Source: Actinopolyspora lacussalsi subsp. righensis
GTDB lineage: Bacteria; Actinomycetota; Actinomycetes; Mycobacteriales; Pseudonocardiaceae
Direction of reading: 5' to 3'
Assembly (NCBI RefSeq): GCF_900116555.1
Contig: NZ_FPAT01000011.1
Span: 62,001 to 126,000 of the forward strand
Length of the DNA: 64,000 nucleotides
Shown one piece after another: positions 38,884 to 64,000 of this stretch (position 1 is its first letter; each line of letters begins with the position of its first letter). Under the pieces are notes generated by a model, which did not search any database, was not told the origin of the DNA, and worked only from the letters and a program-made list of their open reading frames with translations. Made by a program: the position numbers and the translations under genes.

Positions 38884-40653
38884 ATGGCTGCGATACCGGA
38901 CCGTGCCCGCCCTGCTCGGCAGTCGGCGCGATCGTTCGAGATGGTGCTACCCGGCCAGCTGCCGGAGGTGGGCGAGGTGCTGGCGCGGGCCCAGTCGGAG
39001 AACTTCACCGTCGCCGCCCGAGTACTGCCGTACCGGATCCGACAACACCTCATGGCCGTGTACGGCTTCGCCCGACTGGTGGATTACGCCGGGGACGAGG
39101 CGTGCGGCCCCCGTGAGGGGTTGCTGGAACTGCTCGAGGCGGATCTGGGACGTGCCTACGACGGCACACCACGACTTCCGTTGCTGCGCGCGTTCGCACC
39201 GACCGTGCGTGCCTGCGGTATTCCCCGTGCGGTCCCCTCCCGGTTGATCGAGGCGAATCGGCGGGACCAGCACGTACGTCGTTATTCCACTTTCGAGGAA
39301 CTGCTCGATTACTGCTACTACGCCGCCAACCCGATCGGGGAACTGGTCCTCTACATCTTCGGCCGGGCCGAGCCGGAGTTGATCCGACTTTCCGACCGTA
39401 TCTGTTCAGCCTTGCAGATCCTGGAACACTGCCAGGACATCGGCGAGGACTTTGGCCAGGGCAGAATCTACATGCCGCTCAACGACCTGCGGGACTTCGG
39501 GTGTGCGGAATCGGAGCTAGCGGCCCCAACCGCATCCGCCGAACTGCGCGGGGCCGTGTGGTTCGAAGTGGATCGCGCGCTGGAACTGCTGCGATCCGGC
39601 CAACCGTTGATAGGGCGGCTGTCCGGACTGGCCCGGATGGCGGTCGCGGGCTACGTGGCAGGTGGGGTGGCCACGGCACGGGCCTTCGAACCGGCCGGCT
39701 ACGACCCACTGGCGGTGGAGGTGCGTCCCGATCGGAGGAGGATCCTCTCCGAATGGGTCCGCCTCTCGATGTCGTCCTCGGCGGGGCTCGAACACGACCG
39801 CGTCCGCGACGCCTACCGGTACTGCGAACGGATCACTCGAACCCAGGCACGCAACTTCTTCTACGGAATACGGCTGCTGCCTCCGGTCAAACGTGGCGCG
39901 CTCTCCGCCGTGTACTCCTTCGCCCGCAGGGTGGACGACATCGGAGACGGTTCGTTGTCGAGCGAGCAGAAGCTGCTACGCCTGCAACAGGCACGACAGG
40001 ATATCGACGATGTCGGCCCGGACGCCAAGGACCCCGTACTGGTGGCACTGGCCGACACCGCCCGCAGGTTGCCCGTACCGCTGGAGGTGTTCCACGAACT
40101 CATCGACGGGTGCGAGGCCGACGTACGCGGCACTCGCTACGACACCTTCGAACAACTCACGCACTACTGCCGTTGTGTCGCCGGATCGGTGGGCCGCCTC
40201 TCGCTGGGGGTGTTCGGTCACGAGGTCACCGGACCTGCCGCCCAGCGTGCCGATTCCCTCGGAGTGGCGTTGCAACTGACCAATATCCTGCGCGACCTGC
40301 TGGAGGATCGCCGCGGCGGCCGTGTCTACCTGCCGACCGAGGACCTGCGTCGTTTCGGTGTCTCACTCGAACTGGACTCGCGGGGGATGTTCACCGACCC
40401 GCCCGATGCCCTGAACGAGCTCGTGCGTTTCCAGGCCCGTCGAATCGAAGGGTGGTACTCCGAGGGTTTGCGGCTGCTTCCCCTGCTCGATCACCGCAGC
40501 CGCGCCTGTTGCGCGGCGATGGCGGGGATATACCACGAGCTGCTGCGGCACATCGCGGATGATCCCGCCGCGGTGACTCGTGGCAGGATCACACTGCCGG
40601 GCAGGCAGAAAATGATCGTAGCGGCTCGTTCACTGGCGGGGATGAAATCATGA
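38884..40653 (+). CDS. hpnC-hpnD: Fused hydroxysqualene synthase and presqualene diphosphate synthase (HpnC-HpnD)
   Basis: A 589-aa protein made of two complete squalene/phytoene synthase domains. The first (about residues 20-295) is HpnC-like, with Asp-rich motifs D67YAGDE and D185IGED followed by FGQGRIYMP. The second (about 305-575) is HpnD-like, with D351DIGDG and D471LLED followed by RRGGRVYLP. In other bacteria HpnD makes presqualene diphosphate from two farnesyl diphosphates, HpnC turns it into hydroxysqualene, and HpnE reduces that to squalene; usually all are separate genes. Both active sites look complete. The start ATG follows AGGAGG by five bases. The ATGA overlap with hpnE supports a single coupled unit. 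Confidence 0.9.
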   Translation: MAAIPDRARPARQSARSFEMVLPGQLPEVGEVLARAQSENFTVAARVLPYRIRQHLMAVYGFARLVDYAGDEACGPREGLLELLEADLGRAYDGTPRLPLLRAFAPTVRACGIPRAVPSRLIEANRRDQHVRRYSTFEELLDYCYYAANPIGELVLYIFGRAEPELIRLSDRICSALQILEHCQDIGEDFGQGRIYMPLNDLRDFGCAESELAAPTASAELRGAVWFEVDRALELLRSGQPLIGRLSGLARMAVAGYVAGGVATARAFEPAGYDPLAVEVRPDRRRILSEWVRLSMSSSAGLEHDRVRDAYRYCERITRTQARNFFYGIRLLPPVKRGALSAVYSFARRVDDIGDGSLSSEQKLLRLQQARQDIDDVGPDAKDPVLVALADTARRLPVPLEVFHELIDGCEADVRGTRYDTFEQLTHYCRCVAGSVGRLSLGVFGHEVTGPAAQRADSLGVALQLTNILRDLLEDRRGGRVYLPTEDLRRFGVSLELDSRGMFTDPPDALNELVRFQARRIEGWYSEGLRLLPLLDHRSRACCAAMAGIYHELLRHIADDPAAVTRGRITLPGRQKMIVAARSLAGMKS

Positions 40654-42005
40654 CCCGTGGGCGGGTAGTGGTCATCGGTGGTGGTCTGGCCGGTGTTTCC
40701 GCCGCGTTCGGCTGTCGCGACGCCGGTTTCGACGTGACCCTGTTGGAGGCGCGCTCCCGGCTGGGAGGAGCCACTTACTCGTTCTCCCGGGGCGAGCTCA
40801 CCGTGGACACCGGACAACACGTCTTTCTGCGCTGCTACACCGAGTACCTCGCACTGCTACGACGTCTCGGCACCCTCGACAGGGTGCGGATCCAACCGAG
40901 ATTCCGTGTCCCGGTGATCACCCCGCACGGTCCCGGCTGGACATTGCGGCGTGCCGAGCTGCCCGCGCCGGGACACCTGCTGCCCGCACTGTGGGGACAT
41001 CGTGCGCTGTCCCCACGGCAACGGCTCACCGCGGCGCGGACGGCGCTGGCACTGCGCGGACTGGACCCGGACGATCCGGCCCTGGACCGCACCGACTTCG
41101 GGAGTTGGCTGCGCTCTCGCGGCGAATCGGACCGCTCCGTGGCGACGCTGTGGGGACTGTTCTGCGTCGCGGCGTTGAATTCCCAGCCCGACGAGGCATC
41201 GCTGGCCCAGGCGGTCAAAGTGTTCCGTACCGGAATGTTGGACACCACCACCGGGGGCGACATCGGGGTGATCCGTCGTCCGCTGAGCGAAGTGCACGGT
41301 GATCCCGCCCAGCGGAAACTGTCCGAGGCGGGCGTGCTGCCGCTGACCCGGCACAAGGCGTTGGAGATATCCGGCGAACCGTGCGAATACCGCGTGCGGG
41401 TGAGCGCCGAGCAAGAGTACGAACTGACCGCGGACGCGGTTGTCCTCGCCGTTCCGCACCCGGCCGCCGCCAAACTGCTGGCGGACCGAACCTCACCCGT
41501 CGGAGTCGACCTCACCGAGTTGTCGCGCGCGCCCATCGTGAACGTGCACGCCCATTTCGACCGCAGGGTCACCGACCTGTCCATGGCCGCCGCCCTGGAC
41601 TCCCCGGTGCAGTGGTTGTTCGACCGGACGGAAGCCGCCGACGCGCCACGCGGCCAGTATCTGGCGATTTCGTTGTCCGCGGCCCACGAGGAGGTGAAGG
41701 CGCGCTCCGCACGGCTGCGTGAGCAGTACCTACCGGAGTTGCGAAGGTTGTTTCCCGCGGCTCGAGAAGCGCGACTGCTGGATTTCTTCGTCACGAGAGA
41801 GCCCGCGGCCACGTTTCGGCCCGTCCCCGGCGCGAGGTCGTCGCGTCCGGCCGCGCGCACGGCCGAACGGGGACTCGTGCTGGCGGGCGCGTGGACCGAC
41901 ACCGGTTGGCCGGACACCCTCGAAGGGGCTGTACGGAGCGGAAACACCGCGGCCAGTGTCGTCAGCGGGACCGTCGACCGCCACAGCGATGTGGCGTGGA
42001 GGTGA
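40650..42005 (+). CDS. hpnE: Hydroxysqualene dehydroxylase
   Basis: A 451-aa FAD-dependent enzyme of the phytoene desaturase-like family that removes the hydroxyl of hydroxysqualene to give squalene. The dinucleotide-binding motif VVIGGGLAGVSAAFGCRDAG is at the N-terminus, followed by GGATYSFSRGELTVDTGQHVF, and the C-terminal FAD contact is GLVLAGAWTDTGWPDTLEGAV (in pieces). It begins on the ATGA shared with the synthase fusion. Confidence 0.92.
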   Translation: MTRGRVVVIGGGLAGVSAAFGCRDAGFDVTLLEARSRLGGATYSFSRGELTVDTGQHVFLRCYTEYLALLRRLGTLDRVRIQPRFRVPVITPHGPGWTLRRAELPAPGHLLPALWGHRALSPRQRLTAARTALALRGLDPDDPALDRTDFGSWLRSRGESDRSVATLWGLFCVAALNSQPDEASLAQAVKVFRTGMLDTTTGGDIGVIRRPLSEVHGDPAQRKLSEAGVLPLTRHKALEISGEPCEYRVRVSAEQEYELTADAVVLAVPHPAAAKLLADRTSPVGVDLTELSRAPIVNVHAHFDRRVTDLSMAAALDSPVQWLFDRTEAADAPRGQYLAISLSAAHEEVKARSARLREQYLPELRRLFPAAREARLLDFFVTREPAATFRPVPGARSSRPAARTAERGLVLAGAWTDTGWPDTLEGAVRSGNTAASVVSGTVDRHSDVAWR

Positions 42006-42008
42006 CGC

Positions 42009-43019
42009 ATGACAGTGACAATGCCCTCCGCGCTGTCCAGCGCCCGGGAATCCATCGACTCGCGGTTGCGTCACACTGTCGCCGGATTGGATCCGGACAC
42101 CCGCAGGGTCAGCGAATACCATTTCGGCTGGATCGATGCCGAGGGTGCCGAGGACAACCGGCCGGGAAAGGCGCTGCGTCCGGCACTTGTGCTGTTGTCG
42201 GCGCGGGCCGCCAACGGCGACGAACGCAGTGCCTGCAGCGGGGCGGTGGCCGTTGAACTGGTGCACAACTTCTCGTTGCTGCACGACGATCTGATGGACG
42301 GTGACATCTCCCGCAGACACCGTCCCACCGCCTGGACCGTGTTCGGGCGGTCCGCCGCGCTGCTGGCGGGGGACGCGCTGCTCGGACTCGCCAACGGCGT
42401 GTTACTCGAAGCCGATTCGCAGCGGGCGTTGTGGGCGGCTCGTGAACTGTCGGGCACCGTTCGCGAACTCATCGCGGGACAAGCGGCGGATCTGGACTTC
42501 GAGCAGCGCACCGAGGTCGGATTCGACGAGTGCCTGCGCATGGTGGCGGGCAAGACCGCCGCGCTGATCGCGTGCTCCTGCTCCCTCGGCGCCCTGCTGT
42601 CGGGAGCTTCCGAACACACCGTCCGACGACTGCGCGGTTTCGGATTCGAACTCGGAATGGCGTTCCAGCTCGTCGACGATCTGCTCGGAATCTGGGGAGA
42701 TCCGGAGGAGACCGGAAAACCGGTGCTTTCCGACCTGCGTTCCCGCAAGAAGTCGATGCCGGTCGTGCACGCGCTCAATTCGGACACCGACGCCGGTATG
42801 CGGCTGCGTGAGCTGTACCGCCAACCGGAGGAACCCACCGAGGCCCAAGTGCTCCGAGGGGCGGAACTGCTGCGTTCGGCGGGCTCGGAGGAATGGACCA
42901 GGGCCGAGACGGAACGCAGGTTGACGGCCGCTCACCGGCAACTTCGTGACGCCGGGTGTCAGGGAACGACCGAAGAACTGACCGAACTCGCCGATTTCGT
43001 TCTCCGGAGGAACCAGTGA
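42009..43019 (+). CDS. Polyprenyl diphosphate synthase (farnesyl/geranylgeranyl type)
   Basis: A 336-aa trans-prenyl synthase with first Asp-rich motif LLHDDLMDGD and second QLVDDLLGIWGD. The chain-length region before the first motif (VELVHNFSLLHDD) does not let me say whether it makes C15 or C20 product, but in this operon farnesyl diphosphate for squalene is the sensible product. The start follows GGAGGTG by six bases, and the stop overlaps the cyclase start (GTGA). Confidence 0.9.
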   Translation: MTVTMPSALSSARESIDSRLRHTVAGLDPDTRRVSEYHFGWIDAEGAEDNRPGKALRPALVLLSARAANGDERSACSGAVAVELVHNFSLLHDDLMDGDISRRHRPTAWTVFGRSAALLAGDALLGLANGVLLEADSQRALWAARELSGTVRELIAGQAADLDFEQRTEVGFDECLRMVAGKTAALIACSCSLGALLSGASEHTVRRLRGFGFELGMAFQLVDDLLGIWGDPEETGKPVLSDLRSRKKSMPVVHALNSDTDAGMRLRELYRQPEEPTEAQVLRGAELLRSAGSEEWTRAETERRLTAAHRQLRDAGCQGTTEELTELADFVLRRNQ

Positions 43020-45049
43020 CCGGATCGCTGCGCCAGAACGGCGACATCCGTCGAGCCGACCAACCCCGAGCCGACGGCCCCGTCACCGAGACGATGGCCC
43101 CGCCACAGCCGTCCGCGGCGGACGTCGATTCCGAGCGGGCCTCGATGCCGCCGGGGCAGGGGTTTTCCTGGGAGGAGGCGCTCCGAGCCGGCAGCGATCA
43201 CTTGTTGGGGCTGCAGCACGAGGGAGGATGGTGGAAGGGAGAGCTGCAGACCAACGTGACCATGGACGCCGAGGATCTGATGTTGCGTCAGTTCCTCGGG
43301 ATACGGACCTCGGCGGAGACCGCCGCCGCGGCACGTTGGATTCGCTCCCAGCAGCGCGCGGACGGTACCTGGGCGGCCTTCCACGGTGGTCCCGGCGAGC
43401 TGTCCGCGACCGTGGAAGCCTACATCGCCCTGAAACTCGCGGGCGACGAGGTGGACGACGAGCACATGGTCACCGCGCGGCGTTGGATCCGACGCCGCGG
43501 GGGCATCGAACGCACCCGTGTGTTCACCCGCATCTGGCTGGCGATGTTCGGCCAGTGGTCGTGGGACGAGCTGCCCGCCATGCCGCCGGAGATCGTCATG
43601 CTGCCGAGCTGGGTACCGCTGAACCTGGCCGACTGGGGCTGCTGGGCGCGGCAGACCATCGTTCCGCTGACCATAGTCAGCACCCTGCGTCCCCGGCGTG
43701 AACTGGGAGTCGACACCGCCGAGCTGCGCACCGGCACACACCCGGTGGGGCGGGTACGCGAGAACGCCGGAACCTCCCGTTGGGAGTCCGTGTTCAACGG
43801 GCTCGACCGGGCGTTGCACGTCTATCAACGACACCCGATCCGGCCATTGCGCGAGCAGGCCATGCGGCGGGCGGCCGAATGGATCGTGGCGAGGCAGGAA
43901 GCCGACGGTTCCTGGGGAGGTATCCAGCCGCCCTGGGTTTACTCCCTGCTCGCGCTGAACCTGCTCGGCTATCAACTCGACCACCCGGTGATGCGTGCGG
44001 GTATTCGGGGGCTGGAGGGCTTCCTGGTCAGACAGGAGTCGGAACAGGGCAGCCTCCGCAGACTGGAGGCCTGCCAGTCGCCGGTCTGGGACACCGTGCT
44101 GAGCATCCAGGCGCTGCACGATGCCGGGGTACCGGACAGTGACCCGGCGATTCGTGACGCCGTCGAGTTCGTCCGCTCCGAGGAGATCACCGTTCGAGGG
44201 GACTGGGCGGTACGACGTCCCGAGCTACCCGGCGGGGGAGGGTGGGCCTTCGAATTCGAGAACGACGGTTACCCCGACATCGACGACACCGCGGAAGTAC
44301 TGCTGGCTTTCACCCGTACCGGCTATGTCGAACAGGACCGCATCGCCGCGGCCGCCGACCGGGGAAGACGCTGGCTACGCGGTATGCAGTCCCGCGGTGG
44401 CGGCTGGGGAGCCTTCGACGCCGACAACACGCGTTGGCTGGTGAACAAGCTGCCCTTCTGCGACTTCGGGGCGGTCATCGACCCGCCCTCCGCTGATGTC
44501 ACCGCGCACGTGGTGGAGGCCTTGGCCCAGCTCGGGGACGCCAACGACCGCGTCGTCCGCGACGGCATAAGGTGGCTGCTCGAACAGCAGGAGAACGACG
44601 GTTCCTGGTACGGCCGTTGGGGAGCCAACCACATCTACGGTACCGGGGCCGTGGTTCCCGCCCTGGTCGAGGCAGGGATATCGGTACGGCACTGCGCGCT
44701 CACCCGTGCGGCCCGTTGGCTGGAGCAGCGGCAGAACCCGGACGGCGGTTGGGGCGAGGACCTGCGTTCCTACACCGATCCGGCCTGGATCGGTGTAGGG
44801 GACTCGACCGCTTCGCAAACCGCCTGGGCCCTGCTGGCACTGCTGGCTCTGGGACGTCACGACACCGATCCGGTGCGACGCGGAATCGCCTTTCTGGCGG
44901 ACACGCAACAGGCGGACGGCAGCTGGGCGGAACCGCAGTTCACCGGAACGGGGTTCCCGGGTGACTTCTACATCAATTACCACCTCTACCGACAGATCTT
45001 CCCGGTGACCGCTCTCGGGCGATACCGACAAGCCGTCCACGCCGAATAG
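43016..45049 (+). CDS. shc: Squalene-hopene cyclase
   Basis: A 677-aa monotopic membrane cyclase that converts squalene to hopene and diplopterol. The proton-donating motif DIDDTA is at D421-A426, and several QW repeats are visible, such as QQRADGTWAAF, QEADGSWGG, QENDGSWYGRWG, QNPDGGWGED and QQADGSWAEP. The GTG start overlaps the preceding stop and follows GGAGG by six bases; it adds about 45 poorly conserved residues before FSWEEALRAGSDHLL, where the family begins. Confidence 0.95.
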   Translation: MTGSLRQNGDIRRADQPRADGPVTETMAPPQPSAADVDSERASMPPGQGFSWEEALRAGSDHLLGLQHEGGWWKGELQTNVTMDAEDLMLRQFLGIRTSAETAAAARWIRSQQRADGTWAAFHGGPGELSATVEAYIALKLAGDEVDDEHMVTARRWIRRRGGIERTRVFTRIWLAMFGQWSWDELPAMPPEIVMLPSWVPLNLADWGCWARQTIVPLTIVSTLRPRRELGVDTAELRTGTHPVGRVRENAGTSRWESVFNGLDRALHVYQRHPIRPLREQAMRRAAEWIVARQEADGSWGGIQPPWVYSLLALNLLGYQLDHPVMRAGIRGLEGFLVRQESEQGSLRRLEACQSPVWDTVLSIQALHDAGVPDSDPAIRDAVEFVRSEEITVRGDWAVRRPELPGGGGWAFEFENDGYPDIDDTAEVLLAFTRTGYVEQDRIAAAADRGRRWLRGMQSRGGGWGAFDADNTRWLVNKLPFCDFGAVIDPPSADVTAHVVEALAQLGDANDRVVRDGIRWLLEQQENDGSWYGRWGANHIYGTGAVVPALVEAGISVRHCALTRAARWLEQRQNPDGGWGEDLRSYTDPAWIGVGDSTASQTAWALLALLALGRHDTDPVRRGIAFLADTQQADGSWAEPQFTGTGFPGDFYINYHLYRQIFPVTALGRYRQAVHAE

Positions 45050-45058
45050 GTGCTCGCC

Positions 45059-45670
45059 ATGACATCGGACCTGCTCGTATGCGCCCCGCTGCGAGTGGAG
45101 GCCCGCGCGTTGCGCCGACTGGGCGGGAACCGAGTGTTGCGAACCGGGTACGGCAAGCGACGCAGTGCTCGGTCAGCGGCCGAACTCACCGCGCGCGAAT
45201 TCGGTGCGTTGGCCGTGGCCGGCCTGGCAGGAGGGCTCGACCCAGGACTGCGCAGCGGTGACGTGGTGGTGGGAACCGAGGTCGTCGGGTCGGGGAACGG
45301 CGCGTGCCGGCACTCCGACCGTCCCGAGCTGTTGGCCCACCGGCTGCGTGGCCTCGGGCTGCGCGTGTGGCTCGGTCCGGTACTGACCAGCGAGCGGTTG
45401 GTTCTCGGTGCGGAGCGCGTCGCCCTGGCACGGGGCGGCGCGCTGGTCGCGGACATGGAATCGGAGGTGTTGGCGACAGCGGCAGCAGACCGTCCCGTTG
45501 TGATCGTGCGTGTCGTACTCGACACCCACCGACAACCGCTGCTGGGTCCCGGCTCGCCGGCTCGGCTGTCCGGGGCGCTGCGGCGGTTACGCGCTACCGG
45601 CCTGCCGCTGCTTCGCTGGGCCGAGGCTGTGGCGGGACCCGGTTCGCTGGATACTGTCCGTTCTCGCTGA
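45059..45670 (+). CDS. hpnG: Adenosylhopane nucleoside phosphorylase-like protein
   Basis: A 203-aa member of the nucleoside phosphorylase-like HpnG family, which removes adenine from adenosylhopane to give ribosylhopane. LLVCAPLRVEARALRRLG starts the fold, and VADMESEVLATAAADRPVVIVRVVLDT carries the conserved Met-Glu-Ser ribose contact. I chose ATG 45059; GTG 45050 immediately after the cyclase stop is possible. Confidence 0.87.
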   Translation: MTSDLLVCAPLRVEARALRRLGGNRVLRTGYGKRRSARSAAELTAREFGALAVAGLAGGLDPGLRSGDVVVGTEVVGSGNGACRHSDRPELLAHRLRGLGLRVWLGPVLTSERLVLGAERVALARGGALVADMESEVLATAAADRPVVIVRVVLDTHRQPLLGPGSPARLSGALRRLRATGLPLLRWAEAVAGPGSLDTVRSR

Positions 45671-45687: not shown

Positions 45688-46689
45688 ATGGGTATCCCGA
45701 TCCGCCAGGCCGCCAAGGTTGGTGCCTACCTGGTCAAACAAAAGATTCTGCGGCGTAAGAAATTCGCGTTGACCCTCGAGCTGGAGCCGTTGTTCGCGTG
45801 CAACCTGGCGTGCGCTGGCTGTGGCAAGATCCAGCACCCGGCCAACGTGCTCAAACAGCGGATGCCGGTGGAACAGGCATTGTCCGCGGTCGAGGAGTGC
45901 GGAGCTCCGGTGGTCTCCATCGCGGGCGGTGAACCGCTGATGCATCCCGAGATCGAGACGCTCGTCCACGAACTCGTCAAACGCAAGAAGTTCGTCTACC
46001 TGTGCACCAACGCGCTGCTCATGCCGCGCAAGATCGACGAGATCGAGCCCTCCCCTTATTTCTCGTGGGCAGTGCACATCGACGGGTTGGAGGAGCGTCA
46101 CGACGCCTCGGTGAGCAAGCAGGGAGTGTTCGCCCAGGCGGTGGACAACATCAAGGACGCTCAACGTCGCGGTTTCCGCGTGACCACCAACAGCACCTTC
46201 TTCAGCACCGACACGCCCAAGACGGTCATCGACGTGCTGGACTACCTCAACGACGAACTCAACGTCGACCAGATGATGCTGTCCCCCGCGTATGCCTACG
46301 ACAAGGCACCCGACCAGGATCACTTCCTGGGGGTCGAGGAGACCAGGGAGCTTTTCAAGAAGGCTTTCGCCGACGGGAGGCGCAAGAAGTGGCGGTTGAA
46401 CCACTCACCGCTGTTCCTCGACTTTCTCGAGGGCAAGCGCGATTTCGCCTGTACGGCCTGGGCGATCCCCTCGTACTCGTTGTACGGCTGGCAGCGCCCC
46501 TGCTACCTCATGGCGGACGGATACGCACAGTCCTACCGCGAGCTGATCGAGGAGACCGACTGGGAGTCCTACGGAAGGGGAAGAGATTCCCGTTGCGCCA
46601 ATTGCATGGCACACTGCGGCTACGAACCCACCGCGGTGATGGCGACGATGGGGTCGCTACGGGAGTCGCTGCGGGCGATGCGCGGCTGA
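45688..46689 (+). CDS. hpnH: Adenosyl-hopene transferase, radical SAM
   Basis: A 333-aa radical SAM enzyme that joins the 5'-deoxyadenosyl group to hopene, the first step of extended hopanoid side chains. The cluster ligands are C38, C42 and C45 (CNLACAGC), followed by SIAGGEPLMHPEI. A C-terminal Cys-rich stretch (RCANCMAHCGYEP) could be an additional cluster site and is family-typical. AGAGGTG lies six bases before the ATG. It is the last gene of the hopanoid operon. Later side-chain genes (hpnO, hpnP) are not in the window. Confidence 0.94.
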   Translation: MGIPIRQAAKVGAYLVKQKILRRKKFALTLELEPLFACNLACAGCGKIQHPANVLKQRMPVEQALSAVEECGAPVVSIAGGEPLMHPEIETLVHELVKRKKFVYLCTNALLMPRKIDEIEPSPYFSWAVHIDGLEERHDASVSKQGVFAQAVDNIKDAQRRGFRVTTNSTFFSTDTPKTVIDVLDYLNDELNVDQMMLSPAYAYDKAPDQDHFLGVEETRELFKKAFADGRRKKWRLNHSPLFLDFLEGKRDFACTAWAIPSYSLYGWQRPCYLMADGYAQSYRELIEETDWESYGRGRDSRCANCMAHCGYEPTAVMATMGSLRESLRAMRG

Positions 46690-46753: not shown

Positions 46754-46867
46754 GGAACTCGACACGAAGTCCATCGCGCGGCTCGTCGCATGCTCAACAG
46801 CGCGATGTAACCGTCCACGGCGTCGGTGCGGGGTGCCCCGATCCCGCACGCGCCGCGTGAGGTCAAC

Positions 46868-47575
46868 ATGCACAATCCGACGACCGTCCAGCTGGACGGG
46901 CTCCGGACTCATCTTTCACACGCGGGCAAGAAGCTGCTGGAGACCACCCTCGCGCCCTTGGGGTTGTTCTACCTGCTGCTACAGCTGACCGATCTGACGG
47001 GAGGGCTGCTGGCGGCGCTGGGATGGGCGCTGGCGGCGGTGGTGTGCCGACTGGTGTTGCGTGCGCGGATCCCCGCGGTGCTGCTGTTGACCACGGCACT
47101 GTTGGCGGTACGTACCGTTGTCGGCCTGCTCTCGCAGAGCGCTTTCCTGTACTTTCTGCAGCCGAGCCTGCAGAACTTCCTGATAGCGGCCGCGCTGCTG
47201 GCCACGCTGCCGTTCGAACGAACCTTCCTCGCACGGTTGGCCGACGACTTCTGCGTCTTTCCGCCCGCCCTGATGGGCCACGCCGTACTGCGACGGTTCT
47301 TCCGCCGAGTGTCGTTGCTGTGGGCCGCCGTGTTCATCGCCAACGGGGTCGCCGCGCTCTGGATGCTCGCCGAGCACACGGTGGGGCAGTTCCTGCTGGT
47401 GAGCACCATCGGGTCCTACGGACTCGTGGCTTCGGCCGCTCTCGTCTCGTTGTTGTGGTTCCGTAGGGAGCTGCGTGGCCACGGAATCCGGCTGCGGATC
47501 GGGAACGGGACTCCCGGTCTGTTGTCCAACGTGCTACGGCCGATCTGGAACCCGCTCGGTAGCGGTGCGCGTTGA
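46868..47575 (+). CDS. Multi-pass membrane protein, VC0807-like
   Basis: A 235-aa protein with about six hydrophobic segments (APLGLFYLLLQLTDL, LLAALGWALAAVVCRLVL, LLLTTALLAVRTVVGLL and others) and a basic C-terminal tail. The pattern resembles the VC0807 family of unknown function. GAGG lies five bases before the ATG. It follows the hopanoid operon by about 180 bases but has its own -10-like box. Confidence 0.7.
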   Translation: MHNPTTVQLDGLRTHLSHAGKKLLETTLAPLGLFYLLLQLTDLTGGLLAALGWALAAVVCRLVLRARIPAVLLLTTALLAVRTVVGLLSQSAFLYFLQPSLQNFLIAAALLATLPFERTFLARLADDFCVFPPALMGHAVLRRFFRRVSLLWAAVFIANGVAALWMLAEHTVGQFLLVSTIGSYGLVASAALVSLLWFRRELRGHGIRLRIGNGTPGLLSNVLRPIWNPLGSGAR

Positions 47576-48506: not shown

Positions 48507-49430
48507 CTACCCCCAGGTCACTGTTCCACCATCACCGAGGGAGTCGTTGTTCTCGATTTCCCTCCGCAGCGACTCACCCCGATGCGTGAGCAACACGATT
48601 CCGCCGACGATCGCCACGGCGGCCACTGCCTGGCCCCCCAACACCGCCGGAGTGGAGACCACCTCCTCGCCGAACCAGCCGATTCCGATCGCCACCCCCA
48701 CCAGCGGGTCCACGGTGGTGATCACCGCGAGAGCGGGGGAGATCAGTTTTCCCTGTTGAAAGGCATTCTGGCTCAACAGGAAACCACACGGGCCGACGAG
48801 GCACACCGCGTAGAGCACCCAGTGCTGGAACGGTTCGACGAAGCCACCCGCGCGGAATTGACTCGCCACCACCTTCATCAGCCCCGCGGTCACCCCGTAG
48901 ATCACCCCGGTCGCCAACGCCAGCGCGATCACCCGGATCTCGCCGGGGAAACGCGAAGCGGCCAACAGACACACCACCGTGATCACTCCGAGCAGTACCG
49001 CGAGCGGGATCGCCTGTGGCTCTATGGTCTCGTCGCCGCCCACCGGACGCGCCAGCAGCAGGAAAGCGGCGAGGCCACTCATGCACCCGAGTGCGCCCAG
49101 TACGACGATCCGGTCCAGCTTGCGGTGCGCCAGCCAGGCCGCGTGCAGGGCGGCGAACAGCACGCTGGTCACCAGCAGCGGCTGGACCAACATCAAGGGG
49201 CCGTAGGCCAGCGCCACTACCTGCAGGGACAGGCCCACGATGACCGTGCCGACACTGGCCAGCCATATCGGCTTGCGTACCAACTCCAGCAACAGGCGTG
49301 GGTTGAGAGTCCGGATACTTGGCACCTGTTTGGTGGCCCGCTGCTGTACCGCGCTGGCCATGCCGAAACTCGCGGCGCCGACCAGCGCCGCCGGAACCGC
49401 TATCGTGAACCAGGCCCCCGTCGCGGTCAA
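48507..49430 (-). CDS. DMT-superfamily transporter
   Basis: A 307-aa membrane protein with nine or ten helices (for example AVPAALVGAASFGMASAVQQRA and FGEEVVSTPAVLGGQAVAAVAIVGG). The pattern of helix 1 followed by QQRA resembles the Mg-transport/EamA-like branch of the DMT superfamily; the substrate is unknown. The TTG start shares bases with the stop of the fusion gene (TTGA), with GAGGA eight bases upstream, so the two are coupled. Confidence 0.82.
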   Translation of the reverse strand: MTATGAWFTIAVPAALVGAASFGMASAVQQRATKQVPSIRTLNPRLLLELVRKPIWLASVGTVIVGLSLQVVALAYGPLMLVQPLLVTSVLFAALHAAWLAHRKLDRIVVLGALGCMSGLAAFLLLARPVGGDETIEPQAIPLAVLLGVITVVCLLAASRFPGEIRVIALALATGVIYGVTAGLMKVVASQFRAGGFVEPFQHWVLYAVCLVGPCGFLLSQNAFQQGKLISPALAVITTVDPLVGVAIGIGWFGEEVVSTPAVLGGQAVAAVAIVGGIVLLTHRGESLRREIENNDSLGDGGTVTWG

Positions 49431-51997
49431 CGTTGTGCTTCCTCACGGGTGGTCCCCGGCCGTGGGGTGGATTCGGTCCGGGCTCGCAACTGCCGGAAGC
49501 AGGAGCGCAGCTGCTCGCACAGCCGGGAGGGCAGCCACTCCAGCCGAGCGTCGGCGGTGATCCCCACACCCACCGTATCGCCCCAGCTGATCAGCCCCAT
49601 CGCCGTTCCGACGCCGGGAGCGAGCGGAAGGATCGGCAGCACCTCGGCCACCAACGCCCCCCAGACCCGTGGCGGGCGGCGCGAACCCGGCATGGCGGAT
49701 ACCAGCGCGTTGAAGAATCGACGCTGGTAGATAGTCCGCACCAGCGGCCGGTGCAGCGGAGTGGGAAGCATCCCCAACGCCGCCATGGCGATGCCCGCCG
49801 CCGCCGGTTGCCCGTCGTGCTGTCCCGCGTTCAGCCGTTCCGCCACTTCACGCAGGCGCTGTTCCGCGTCCATGGGACCCACCGGGAGGTCCACCGAGAC
49901 CGCTACCGTGTGGTTCCCGAACATCTCCGCCGTCGGTGTGTCCCGAGGTGAACGCGTGGTACGCGGCACCATCACCCGCATGTGCTGTCCCGGACCGGTG
50001 CCGGTTCGTTCGGCGAGCGTGCGGTGCAGCGCCTCGGCGGTCAAACCGATCAGCAGCACACTGCTGGGGATGCCGCGGGCGCGTGCCTGTGCGCGTACTT
50101 CGCCGGTGGGCAGCTCCGCGGTGTCGAACACCCGGCCGGAGGTGCTGTCCCCGTCCAACGGGCTCAGCGGCGCCGGTCCCGCCGTGGCCAGCTTCCACAT
50201 CCCCCGCGCCACGGTCAGTGCCGTGCGCCCCCGGGAAGTGACGAGGGAACGGATCGCGGCGGACGCCGTGGCCCTTCGCTCGTTGCGCGGAGGCGGTGAA
50301 TCCCGCTCCCGATCGTCGGCGCTGTCACGCAGCAAGCGCACCAGGGTGTTCGTGACCGCGATGCCGTCACCCAGCGCGTGGTGCAACTTCGCGAGGATCA
50401 ACGTTTCGGTGTCCGTGCGCAGCACCCTCAGTTGCCAGGGAGGGCGATCCGTGGGTACCGCGGCGGTGAAGAACTCCCGCACCACCTCGTCGCGTTCCGG
50501 GGAGGTGCGATGATCCAGATGTTGCCACGGCTCGATACGCCGAACGGTGTGCCACCGCGGGCCGCGAGCGCCTCGTTGGACCAGGGTGTTGCGCAGCATC
50601 GGTAGTGCTCGGGCACGTCGTTCGATCAGCTCGGCGAGGTGCCCGGCCCACTGTTCGGCGGTTCTCTCCTCGGGCGCCTCTCGCAGGCGCAGCACGGCGC
50701 CGGTCTGCTGGGGTACCACCGCGTCCGCCGCGTGCACGAAGAACCGGTCGGAGGAGCGCAACCGTCGCGCGCCGCGGTGCCTGGGCAGTTCGGCGAGTGC
50801 GGCCACCTGCTCGGTGAACTCCCCCGCGGTCGCCTGTCCCAGGGCACGCTGTTCGTCGCGTCGTAGTCGTTCGGGGCTGGCGGTGAGTTCGTGCAGCGTC
50901 GCCGCCAGCGAGTCGGAGGTCGGGCACAGTTCCGCCAGACCCGCTCGTGCCATGAGTTCCGCGTTGGCTCGACCGTGTCCGGCGATCGGTTCGAACATGA
51001 TCACCGTGCGGCCACAGGCCATCGTCTCCAACGCGGTGGCACCTCCAGCGTTGGAGATCACCACATCCGCCGCGGCCGTCAACCCCGGCATGTCGTCGCA
51101 CCAGCCCAGCGCCAACAAGCTCCGCTCTGTGGTGTCGCGTTCCGCCAGTCGCGCGCGCAGCTGCTCGTTACGGCCACACGCCACGATCACCCGGTCGACG
51201 CGGGATTCGGCCAGCGCCGTGTCCACGGCGCGTTCCACCGAACCGAACGACAGCGAGCCGCACGCGATCAGGACCTGAAAACCCTCGGTCGGCATGCCCA
51301 GTGACCGCCGGGCCTCCTCCCTGTCGCGAGGACGGAACGCCGCGGAAACGGGAGGTACGCTCACTGCCGCCGTGGCGTCGGGCTGCGCACGGTGGAGCGC
51401 TCGCAGGCTGGCTTCGCTCATCACGTAGTGCAGGTCGATCTCCGGGTACACCCAGAACGGGTGCGGGCAGAAGTCCGAAACCACGGCCGAAACCGGTTTT
51501 TCCAGCTCGCCACGGCGACGCAGCCGATCCAGCCCGGCAGTGGCCATCGGGTAGGTCGAGATCACCAGATCCGGTTCCCACCGTCGGATTCGACGGCGAA
51601 GCGGTGGTCCGACCCAAGCTCCCACGAAACGTCGAGAAGCGGTGGCGAACCAGTGCCACCGCCACAGCGCGTCGTAGAACAGGTCGTACAACCACGGGGT
51701 GGATTCCACGTTGCGGACGTAGATCCATCGGAACAGTGGTCCGACTCCCGGACCCATCATCCGCAACGTGTCCAGACGTGCCGTTTCGCATTCGGGCCAG
51801 AGCCGTCGCGCCGCTTCCTCGATGGCCCGGGCCGTCGCGTTGTGCCCCTCACCGATATCGGCACTGACCAGCAGTATTCGTTCCGGGGAGCGACCGTTCG
51901 GGTGATGGGAGGTCACCGGCCAAAGTCCTTCCGTGCTCTCGGTGTCTCGTAGCGGGGCAACGGCGCTGTCGCTGGTCGGCTCGCCGGAAGCACGCAC
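49427..51997 (-). CDS. Fusion protein: MGDG-synthase-like glycosyltransferase plus wax-ester-synthase/diacylglycerol acyltransferase
   Basis: About 856 residues. Residues 30-420 form a GT-B glycosyltransferase like monogalactosyldiacylglycerol synthase: ILLVSADIGEGHNATARAI, SDFCPHPFWVYPEID, then the donor-binding SNAGGATALETMACGRTVI. From about 430 on comes a WS/DGAT-type acyltransferase, starting RRLRSSDRFFVHAADAV, with the catalytic motif HHALGDG (about 538-544), PRTTRSP and the WS/DGAT C-terminal region (NALVSAMPGSRRPP). Both halves are full length with intact motifs. A lipid glycosylation plus acylation role in the inner leaflet is inferred. The start is uncertain: GTG 51997 (GGAG seven bases upstream), GTG 52033 and GTG 51916 are all in frame. 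Confidence 0.85.
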   Translation of the reverse strand: MRASGEPTSDSAVAPLRDTESTEGLWPVTSHHPNGRSPERILLVSADIGEGHNATARAIEEAARRLWPECETARLDTLRMMGPGVGPLFRWIYVRNVESTPWLYDLFYDALWRWHWFATASRRFVGAWVGPPLRRRIRRWEPDLVISTYPMATAGLDRLRRRGELEKPVSAVVSDFCPHPFWVYPEIDLHYVMSEASLRALHRAQPDATAAVSVPPVSAAFRPRDREEARRSLGMPTEGFQVLIACGSLSFGSVERAVDTALAESRVDRVIVACGRNEQLRARLAERDTTERSLLALGWCDDMPGLTAAADVVISNAGGATALETMACGRTVIMFEPIAGHGRANAELMARAGLAELCPTSDSLAATLHELTASPERLRRDEQRALGQATAGEFTEQVAALAELPRHRGARRLRSSDRFFVHAADAVVPQQTGAVLRLREAPEERTAEQWAGHLAELIERRARALPMLRNTLVQRGARGPRWHTVRRIEPWQHLDHRTSPERDEVVREFFTAAVPTDRPPWQLRVLRTDTETLILAKLHHALGDGIAVTNTLVRLLRDSADDRERDSPPPRNERRATASAAIRSLVTSRGRTALTVARGMWKLATAGPAPLSPLDGDSTSGRVFDTAELPTGEVRAQARARGIPSSVLLIGLTAEALHRTLAERTGTGPGQHMRVMVPRTTRSPRDTPTAEMFGNHTVAVSVDLPVGPMDAEQRLREVAERLNAGQHDGQPAAAGIAMAALGMLPTPLHRPLVRTIYQRRFFNALVSAMPGSRRPPRVWGALVAEVLPILPLAPGVGTAMGLISWGDTVGVGITADARLEWLPSRLCEQLRSCFRQLRARTESTPRPGTTREEAQR

Positions 51998-52094
51998 CGT
52001 CCTTCTCCGCAAGACCGTATCGCCCTCGGACACGTTTGGCGATCAGGCGGTCGCAGTGAGTCGCGAAAGTTTCACCGCTCCGTCCGGCAACGGA

Positions 52095-52418
52095 TCAGTC
52101 CCGCGGCGGTAATTCCGCCACGGACGTCACGTCGCGTCCCGCTCTGCCGACCTTGGCGGCTCCGCCGGGGGAACCGAGGCCGGTAATCTCGAAGAACTCG
52201 GTGTTGAACGTGGTGTATTCGGCCCATTCGTCCGGCACGTCGTCCTCGTAGTAGATGGCTTCCACCGGGCACACCGGCTCGCACGCTGCGCAGTCGATGC
52301 ACTCGTCGGGATGGATGTAGAGCATCCGCTCTCCCTCGTAGATGCAGTCCACCGGACATTCGTCGATGCAGGACCTGTCGAGTACGTCCACGCACGGCTG
52401 AGTAATTACGTAGGTCAC
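52095..52418 (-). CDS. fdxA: 7Fe ferredoxin
   Basis: A 107-aa ferredoxin with both cluster motifs. The first is of the 3Fe-4S type (CVDVLDRSCIDECPVDC) and the second is of the 4Fe-4S type (CIDCAACEPVCP). It passes electrons in the cytoplasm; no partner oxidoreductase is beside it. The GTG start (MTYVITQPC) follows GGGAG by nine bases. Open frame further upstream is non-coding in character. It is divergent from the DeoR gene. Confidence 0.93.
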   Translation of the reverse strand: MTYVITQPCVDVLDRSCIDECPVDCIYEGERMLYIHPDECIDCAACEPVCPVEAIYYEDDVPDEWAEYTTFNTEFFEITGLGSPGGAAKVGRAGRDVTSVAELPPRD

Positions 52419-63091: not shown

Positions 63092-64000
63092 TTACCTACC
63101 ACCCAACATAGAACTGGACGACACCTGAGCGAGACTATCCGTCAACCGTGCCCGAATCCGGGCAGTGACTACGGGAACAGTGCCACGCAGTGCCACACCG
63201 AATCCGCGTGACCGCGACACCGAGACACGATTGGCGAACACGTCGTACCCCGATTCCACTATCCGATCCAGTATCTCACCGTAGAGCGTGTAGGCCGTGG
63301 CGATACACGGACGTGAGATCGGATCCAACATCTCGATCCCTTCGGCGGCATACCGGTAGATCGCTCTGGTACGGGCGATCTGGTCGGCGAGTGCGCTGCG
63401 AACCCTTCGATCCGCTCTCCCCGTCTCCAGGCAGTGCCGCAGTCTCGGCTCGTCGACGCCGAAAGCGATCAGCTCGTCAGCGGGCAGGTACACGCGCCCC
63501 TTGCGCAGATCCTCACCGACATCGCGCAGGAAGTTGGTGAGCTGGAACGCGTTTCCCAGCGCCGCCGCGTAAGGAGCCGCTTCCTCCGGCGGGCACCGGG
63601 TACCCAGCACGGGGAGCACCTGTAAACCGATGACTTCGGCCGAGCCGTGGACGTACTCGTCCAGTTCCGCGCGGTTCCGGTACCCGGCGACGGTCAGATC
63701 CTGCCGCATCGAGGCCATGAAGGAGTTGAAGCGCCGCTGTTCGATCCCGTAGCGGTTAGCGGTGTCCACCACCGCCCTCACCACCGCGAGCTCACTTCGC
63801 TCACCCGCGAATCCCCGGTCCAGCTCCGTCCACAGATCGTCGATCCGGGCATGCCGGGTCCGTTGCTCGAGGGGCCCTCGTGGCTCGTCGACGATGTCGT
63901 CGACTTCCCGCGCCAAACCGTACAACGCGTGTATCGCCGGACGGCGTGACGGCGGCAACAGTCGTGTGGCCAGGAAGTAGGTACGTCCGTGTCTCGCGTT
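63092..64000 (-). CDS. crtB: Phytoene synthase (5' end cut off by window)
   Basis: About 303 codons are visible and the frame stays open to the right edge, so the N-terminus is missing. HGRTYFLATRLLPPSRRPAIHALYG is readable at the edge (in pieces). The first Asp motif is DDIVDE (REVDDIVDEPRG) and the second DVGED (NFLRDVGEDLRKGRVYLP). It condenses two geranylgeranyl diphosphates to phytoene. It differs from both halves of the hopanoid fusion in carrying the phytoene-type NFLRDVGED motif. idi follows after three bases. Confidence 0.93.
   Translation of the reverse strand, partial: NARHGRTYFLATRLLPPSRRPAIHALYGLAREVDDIVDEPRGPLEQRTRHARIDDLWTELDRGFAGERSELAVVRAVVDTANRYGIEQRRFNSFMASMRQDLTVAGYRNRAELDEYVHGSAEVIGLQVLPVLGTRCPPEEAAPYAAALGNAFQLTNFLRDVGEDLRKGRVYLPADELIAFGVDEPRLRHCLETGRADRRVRSALADQIARTRAIYRYAAEGIEMLDPISRPCIATAYTLYGEILDRIVESGYDVFANRVSVSRSRGFGVALRGTVPVVTARIRARLTDSLAQVSSSSMLGGR

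Follow-up and report, generated by a model that had tools for sequence, protein, structure and literature searches.

A glycosyltransferase-acyltransferase fusion conserved beside hopanoid genes in actinomycetes is a probable hopanoid-tailoring enzyme

Here, we describe a protein of Actinopolyspora lacussalsi subsp. righensis in which a glycosyltransferase (GT) and an acyltransferase (AT) are joined in one polypeptide, and which is probably a bifunctional hopanoid-tailoring enzyme with a hopanoid as its likely acceptor. It is encoded by 868 codons in a single stop-free frame on the minus strand (49427-52033) of the window, the whole stretch of 64,000 nucleotides that was analysed (contig NZ_FPAT01000011.1, positions 62,001 to 126,000). 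The catalytic motifs of both halves are intact, both halves are predicted to adopt the folds of solved enzymes, the linkage to hopanoid genes is conserved, and the fusion co-occurs across genomes with the gene for HpnH. From these observations we infer the acceptor, the sugar, the acyl donor, the order of steps, the export of the product and the step of a neighbouring short-chain dehydrogenase/reductase (SDR). New here are a bifunctional enzyme that is conserved within hopanoid clusters and the product lipid predicted from it.

The open reading frame (ORF) extends from a GTG at 52033 to a TGA at 49429-49427. The initial annotation had placed the protein at 49427-51997; its stop stands, while the start is displaced, as the frame reaches GTG 52033 and 51997 is another in-frame GTG. 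Start candidates lie at residues 1, 8, 13 and 40, and the conserved core begins at about residue 50. Four Pfam domains exceed their cut-offs: MGDG_synth PF06925 (57 bits versus 25, residues 64-208), Glyco_tran_28_C PF04101 (40.5 versus 22, residues 254-396), WS_DGAT_cat PF03007 (47.3 versus 23.6, residues 425-608) and WS_DGAT_C PF06974 (60 versus 20.7, residues 706-849). With SNAGGATALE and HHALGDG (residues 551-557) both present, this bears out the earlier claim that two full enzymes with intact motifs are read in one frame. More specific models were not reached: the GT half scored 119.5 against a cut-off of 500 (NF010135) and 67.7 against 557 (NF010134) for diglucosyl diacylglycerol synthases, and the AT half 159 bits against 309.95 for the subfamily TIGR02946 of wax ester synthases/diacylglycerol acyltransferases (WS/DGATs). 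By these profile scores, both halves are members of known superfamilies outside the curated subfamilies tested. No HpnI model was among the NCBIfam matches of the fusion at E ≤ 0.01, in a library that probably contains one. The protein is 97% identical to its counterpart in A. alba DSM 45004, and its GT half shares 99% identity with the one in G338, a second genome from this species. One further WS/DGAT-catalytic match (C14) was found in its own genome and groups with generic WS/DGATs in the tree described below.

An AlphaFold2 model on 35 aligned fusions reached a mean pLDDT of 89.6 and a pTM of 0.79. Its N-terminal part superposes on MGD1 (PDB 4x1t) with a Z score of 30.1 and a root-mean-square deviation (rmsd) of 2.9 over 302 aligned residues, i.e. 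a GT-B fold; its C-terminal part superposes on the Marinobacter WS/DGAT 6chj (Z 36.0, rmsd 3.1, 345 aligned) and on the Acinetobacter wax synthase 7nxg (Z 35.4). When sequences of solved chains are compared, the GT half is closest to a processive diacylglycerol glucosyltransferase and to MGD1 and, more weakly, to a MurG-type enzyme, and the AT half is closest to 6chj.

Is the join a peculiarity of this genome? In a search of 61 genomes, fusion-length matches were found in 19 including its own, and all nine same-genus genomes searched (own included) carry the join. With domain models built from these matches, both domains were found in a single stop-free ORF in 69 genomes in total: 35 including the window's own, and then 34 more. 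The domain pair is conserved in relatives, a point that the initial annotation had proposed to check. The 69 genomes comprise 64 of the window's family (f1), one each of f5 and f3, and three of f15; the fusion is common to many actinomycetes. A sequencing error near residue 425 or a chance join was considered and is ruled out by the identical join in these 69 genomes. The same observation, which includes the single-contig assemblies G003, G006 and G020, renders a frame error joining two genes vanishingly improbable, and we found no point in its support. The refuting case named in the initial annotation, separate proteins in relatives and a join created by error, failed as well, though two genera keep one half only.

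Conservation extends to the presumed active sites. HxxxDG of the AT half (H552, D556, G557) is kept in 69 of 69 fusions (35 by alignment, 34 by a motif at the expected position), with the HH form in 67 (35/35 aligned, 32/34 others) and DH in two. In the GT half, G61, G63, H64, D187, G330, G331 and E336 are invariant in the 35 fusions examined, and N328 is replaced by T in three of these. The region across the junction (residues 384-432) measures 49 residues in 20 of the 35 aligned fusions and 34 to 107 in the rest.

Beyond these genomes, GT relatives without an AT partner are found. In a phylum sample of 396 genomes, GT matches at E ≤ 1e-30 came from 24, of which the window's own was the sole one better than 1e-60; in nine of the other 23 (loci L124-L131, L192 and L193), including three with long open frames, the ORF of the GT held no AT domain. 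The long frames of G028 (C7) and G360 are likewise GT relatives without an AT domain. No hopanoid genes lie near the f32 GTs in four loci (L124, L125, L127, L131), and HpnH was absent from the two f32 GT genomes searched.

The acceptor is suggested by the genomic context. At least one of hpnCD, hpnE, IdsB, squalene-hopene cyclase (SHC) and HpnH lies within 13 kb of the fusion in 65 of the 69 loci, and at least three do in 56. Because the hopanoid cluster adjoins the fusion in four families, a hopanoid is likely the lipid in question rather than a glycerolipid resembling monogalactosyldiacylglycerol (MGDG). The order in which HpnH is followed by the reversed genes for the SDR, a DMT-family membrane protein and the fusion recurs across genera, with variations. 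The loci with none of these five core genes in the 13-kb range are those of G273 and of three g20 genomes; in the latter, HpnH lies at 9.5 kb (G303, just beyond the fetched stretch), 19 kb (G290) and 25 kb (G331) from the fusion.

The fusion co-occurs with HpnH. In a sample of 200 genomes of the family, HpnH was found in 81 and the fusion in 64, the latter counted from GT matches in frames of at least 760 aa and then checked for both domains (64/64), so that the count would miss fusions in shorter frames and those whose GT match is weaker than E 1e-20. HpnH was present at E ≤ 1e-100 in 62 of the 64 fusion genomes and within 15 kb of the fusion in 57 (Fisher p 6e-32, a value that ignores relatedness). 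Of 46 genera, 17 contain the fusion, all within the 19 HpnH genera, compared with 0 of 27 genera lacking HpnH. In an order sample of 200 genomes, which overlaps in part with the family sample, HpnH occurs in 36 and the fusion in 11, all 11 with HpnH. More telling than the p value are genera in which HpnH is patchy. In g16, G344 is the sole genome with an HpnH match and the sole one with the fusion; in g93, both are found in G263, G281 and G350, whereas six further members (G236, G297, G325, G339, G360, G370) are without HpnH and carry GT relatives in different frames; in g43 of family f15, both occur in G164, G193 and G213 only. Among incomplete or dispersed loci, G284 carries an HpnH fragment at a contig end, and in G230 HpnH lies 125 kb away, but the fusion adjoins SHC. 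The fusions of G284, G314 and G241 are on contigs without an HpnH match, next to other hopanoid genes.

Several observations weigh against a hopanoid acceptor. G273, a genome 93% complete, has the fusion, and no HpnH was found in it. Conversely, 19 of the 81 HpnH genomes are without the fusion: eight of g25, ten of g27 and one of g3 (G341, 87% complete). In g27, a GT of the fused type (in seven of ten HpnH genomes) is separated from HpnH by 0.47-5.2 Mb or placed on a different contig, and in g98 a GT and SDR pair (with a DMT gene in three of four) is placed apart from HpnH, which is found elsewhere in all four genomes. Both halves score under the curated subfamily cut-offs tested, linkage points to a shared pathway and not to the acceptor itself, and two of the three solved-chain matches of the GT half, the best two, are annotated for diacylglycerol.

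These points bear on an alternative, in which the fusion makes an acylated glycosyl-diacylglycerol, similar to MGDG or glucosyl-diacylglycerol, and is co-inherited with the hopanoid cluster as membrane-lipid genes. The best solved relatives, a processive diacylglycerol glucosyltransferase and MGD1 for the GT half and WS/DGAT for the AT half, speak for this alternative, and since diacylglycerol is the substrate of the two best for the GT half and no HpnH was found in G273, we raised our estimate of it slightly, to a level that is still low. A general glycerolipid enzyme should be independent of hopanoids, and the dependence on HpnH thus weakens this explanation: apart from G273, no fusion lacking HpnH was seen, not even within the genera in which HpnH is patchy, and the scores against the diglucosyl diacylglycerol synthase models remain far below their cut-offs.

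Within the operon, the fusion has two regular partners. The TTG start of the DMT-family ORF overlaps the stop codon of the fusion by four bases (TTGA, 49430-49427), and the SDR ORF begins 88 bases beyond the DMT ORF on the same strand; the initial annotation had noted the TTGA coupling and an SDR close behind. The DMT protein has about nine membrane stretches by a rough hydropathy count, matches NF038012 with 95 bits and misses the cut-off of the NIPA model narrowly (26.0 versus 26.2). The SDR lies within 6 kb of the fusion in 68 of the 69 loci, and a DMT gene lies near it in 67 (65 by script, and L107 and L175 by inspection, where the DMT match overlaps the fusion match; L104 and L176 are without it); the loci were chosen for holding the fusion or HpnH, so these proportions are not population rates, and the named records L033-L038 were excluded from the counts because their genomes are already in the sample under G handles. 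Among 83 high-identity SDR copies, pattern searches found TGxxxGxG in 80, YxxxK in 72 and an NNAG-type motif in 32. These copies group together in a FastTree tree, which has long branches and one row only 11% filled and was used for this grouping only. The SDR is frequent, not universal, in HpnH clusters without the fusion: it is present in L062, L065, L066, L067, L114, L115, L133, L135, L138, L148-L151 and L189-L191, and it was not seen over roughly 9 kb on the side of HpnH in L140, L141, L145, L146, L147 and L152, short contigs excluded. The idea of a locus for glycosylating, acylating and then transporting a lipid, proposed from the window alone, is consistent with the completeness of both halves and the constancy of these partners; what had been overlooked is the hopanoid cluster next door, and with it the idea gains strength but shifts from a generic glycolipid towards hopanoids.

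The history of the join was examined in quick trees, without bootstrap, of 35 of the 69 fusions. In the AT tree, 35 fused copies and one unfused copy (L062, genus g25) form a group with an SH-aLRT support of 99; on the other side are seven hopanoid-linked unfused copies and three generic WS/DGATs (five were planned, and L029 and L032 were dropped for lack of the domain in the chosen frame). In the GT tree, the fused copies belong to a group (SH-aLRT 95) that also takes in three unfused copies of g27. The trees of both halves match, which indicates an essentially single origin, and the simplest reading would be one fusion event, after which g25 lost the GT half and g27 the AT half. In the latter genus, the fused-type GT occurs with a DMT gene elsewhere in the genome (L061, L116, L132), and the hopanoid cluster contains a different WS/DGAT joined to an N-terminal PAP2_3 domain (L114:15893-17893, minus strand; Pfam was run on L114 only). 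This PAP2-AT protein is matched at 66-67% in L189, L190 and L191, and an AT occupies the same place in a similar frame in L115 and L133. An unfused GT relative also occurs with an SDR, a pair of DMT genes and the hopanoid cluster in f12 (L065, 34% identity) and f10 (L150, 30% identity), which speaks for a hopanoid acceptor. As a separate observation, a second, unfused GT divergently adjoins the fusion in six genomes of genera g5 and g93 (L109:9939-11063, L110:9156-10331, L111, L112, L113, L060); in the GT tree, these copies are the sister group to the fused GTs.

The separability of the halves is relevant to a variant of the hopanoid-tailoring reading, in which two decorations are made separately: the GT half would yield a hopanoid glycoside, the AT half would esterify a different hopanoid or free bacteriohopanetetrol, and the join would serve co-expression only. 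The fused-clade AT alone in g25 (one genome in the tree), the fused-clade GT alone in g27 (three in the tree) and the hopanoid-linked AT fused to a PAP2 domain instead (L114) would fit this variant. Against this, 69 genomes retain a single ORF, and the junction is equally long in 20 of 35 fusions, a hint that being joined is of importance. We consider separate decorations a minority possibility, though one to be taken seriously, and that the sugar and the acyl group end on the same molecule has, in our estimate, somewhat less than an even chance.

How could the locus work? In the reading that we consider most probable, HpnC, HpnD and HpnE together with SHC produce diploptene, from which HpnH makes adenosylhopane and HpnG ribosylhopane. 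The SDR may be the reductase that converts ribosylhopane to bacteriohopanetetrol. The GT-B half would then use a nucleotide-sugar to glycosylate a hydroxyl on the side chain of the hopanoid, and the WS/DGAT half would O-acylate the sugar or a side-chain hydroxyl, presumably from acyl-CoA by a mechanism with a histidine of HHxxxDG as the base, before the DMT/NIPA-like protein would carry the product across the membrane. Alternatively, the enzyme could act on another product of the cluster, a squalene- or carotenoid-derived polar lipid instead of a C35 hopanoid, as the prenyl diphosphate synthase and the HpnC/D/E-type genes could supply other terpenoids. We regard this as very unlikely: the co-occurrence is with HpnH, the starter of the C35 side chain that bears the hydroxyls needed, and SHC lies within the same clusters.

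Table 1. Features of the fusion operon and the adjacent hopanoid cluster in the window.
Feature	Position	Strand	Remarks
GT-AT fusion protein, 868 aa	49427..52033	-	start uncertain: GTG 52033 or later in-frame GTG
Glycosyltransferase half, residues 50-400	50834..51886	-	PF06925 + PF04101; MGD1 fold (predicted)
Short junction, residues 401-424	50762..50833	-	
Acyltransferase half, residues 425-851	49481..50761	-	PF03007 + PF06974; Marinobacter WS/DGAT fold (predicted)
DMT/NIPA-like membrane protein, 307 aa	48507..49430	-	overlaps fusion stop
Classical short-chain dehydrogenase/reductase, 250 aa	47666..48418	-	
HpnC-HpnD in one ORF, 591 aa	38878..40653	+	TIGR03464 + TIGR03465
HpnE, hydroxysqualene dehydroxylase	40650..42005	+	TIGR03467
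Polyprenyl diphosphate synthase, IdsB-like	42009..43019	+	under IdsB cut-off
Squalene-hopene cyclase, start uncertain	42956..45049	+	TIGR01507, 733 bits
HpnG-like phosphorylase, 206-aa frame	45089..45532	+	TIGR03468, 74 bits, under cut-off 187
HpnH, adenosyl-hopene transferase	45688..46689	+	TIGR03470, 522 bits; model match begins 45688
VC0807-family membrane protein	46826..47575	+	

The hopanoid genes lie on the plus strand, convergent with the fusion operon (Table 1), and in 36 of the 69 loci a relative of the VC0807-family protein occurs no more than 8 kb from the fusion. HpnC and HpnD, joined in the window, are two separate matches in many other genera. The polyprenyl synthase has its best score with a model of family-2 encapsulin cargo prenyltransferases (419 bits versus a cut-off of 450). 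The HpnG-like phosphorylase stands alone in Actinopolyspora and in L052 (220 aa); in L057 (14460-16004, minus strand) and L117 (4451-5965, plus strand), the two loci subjected to a profile search, it is fused to IspH (LytB), the joint ORF of roughly 510 aa being flanked by SHC and HpnH, and the L057 copy has full-length matches in many other clusters. A second HpnD/phytoene-synthase-like gene lies near the window edge (63092-63958, minus strand; 186 bits to HpnD versus a cut-off of 279). Upstream of the fusion, an actinobacterial FdxA ferredoxin gene (52095-52415, minus strand; 177 bits versus 125) ends about 60 bases away on the same strand.

In summary, a conserved GT-AT fusion in hopanoid clusters points to a lipid that, in our judgement, is undescribed. 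None of the titles and abstract openings searched describes a GT-AT fusion, pairs a wax ester synthase with a glycosyltransferase in a hopanoid context or links an acylated bacteriohopanepolyol to a glycosyltransferase. Hopanoids, sterol-like lipids of bacteria, leave molecular fossils that are in wide use, and the locus offers concrete enzyme candidates as well as a lipid to seek by mass spectrometry. An ester-linked glycolipid might be lost in hydrolysing work-ups, a possible reason for its having stayed unnoticed. Taking all steps together, we tentatively propose, as a reading more doubtful than its parts, that many actinomycetes make an acylated glycosyl-bacteriohopanetetrol with one bifunctional enzyme, a dedicated NIPA-like exporter and an adjacent SDR acting as the ribosylhopane reductase. 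If true, one locus would settle the open step from ribosylhopane to bacteriohopanetetrol.

Compared with known systems, the fusion shares PF06925, PF04101 and the GT-B fold with MGD1 (PDB 4wyi, 4x1t) and the processive diacylglycerol beta-glucosyltransferase (PDB 9wde), and the glycine/glutamate region of their donor site aligns. However, its GT half is only 22-26% identical to MGD1 in structure alignments and, unlike these enzymes, is joined to an acyltransferase and linked to hopanoid genes. Similarly, the fold, HHxxxDG, PF03007 and PF06974 are those of the WS/DGATs of Marinobacter (6chj) and Acinetobacter (AbWSD1, 7nxg), whereas the AT half is 18-20% identical to them and has an N-terminal GT partner. 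If the acceptor is indeed a hopanoid, the fusion would act like HpnI, the glycosyltransferase of the cyclitol ether pathway of bacteriohopanetetrol. HpnI is not known to have an acyltransferase half. It is reported to convert bacteriohopanetetrol to an N-acetylglucosamine derivative, and the enzyme for the step from ribosylhopane to bacteriohopanetetrol is described as not yet established (PMC12583986). Glycosidic and acylated hopanoid side chains are on record, and although the Alicyclobacillus case cited is N-acyl and not O-acyl, the acylated and glycosylated bacteriohopanepolyols of this genus and other thermophiles provide a chemical precedent for sugars and acyl groups on hopanoids (PMC8537080).

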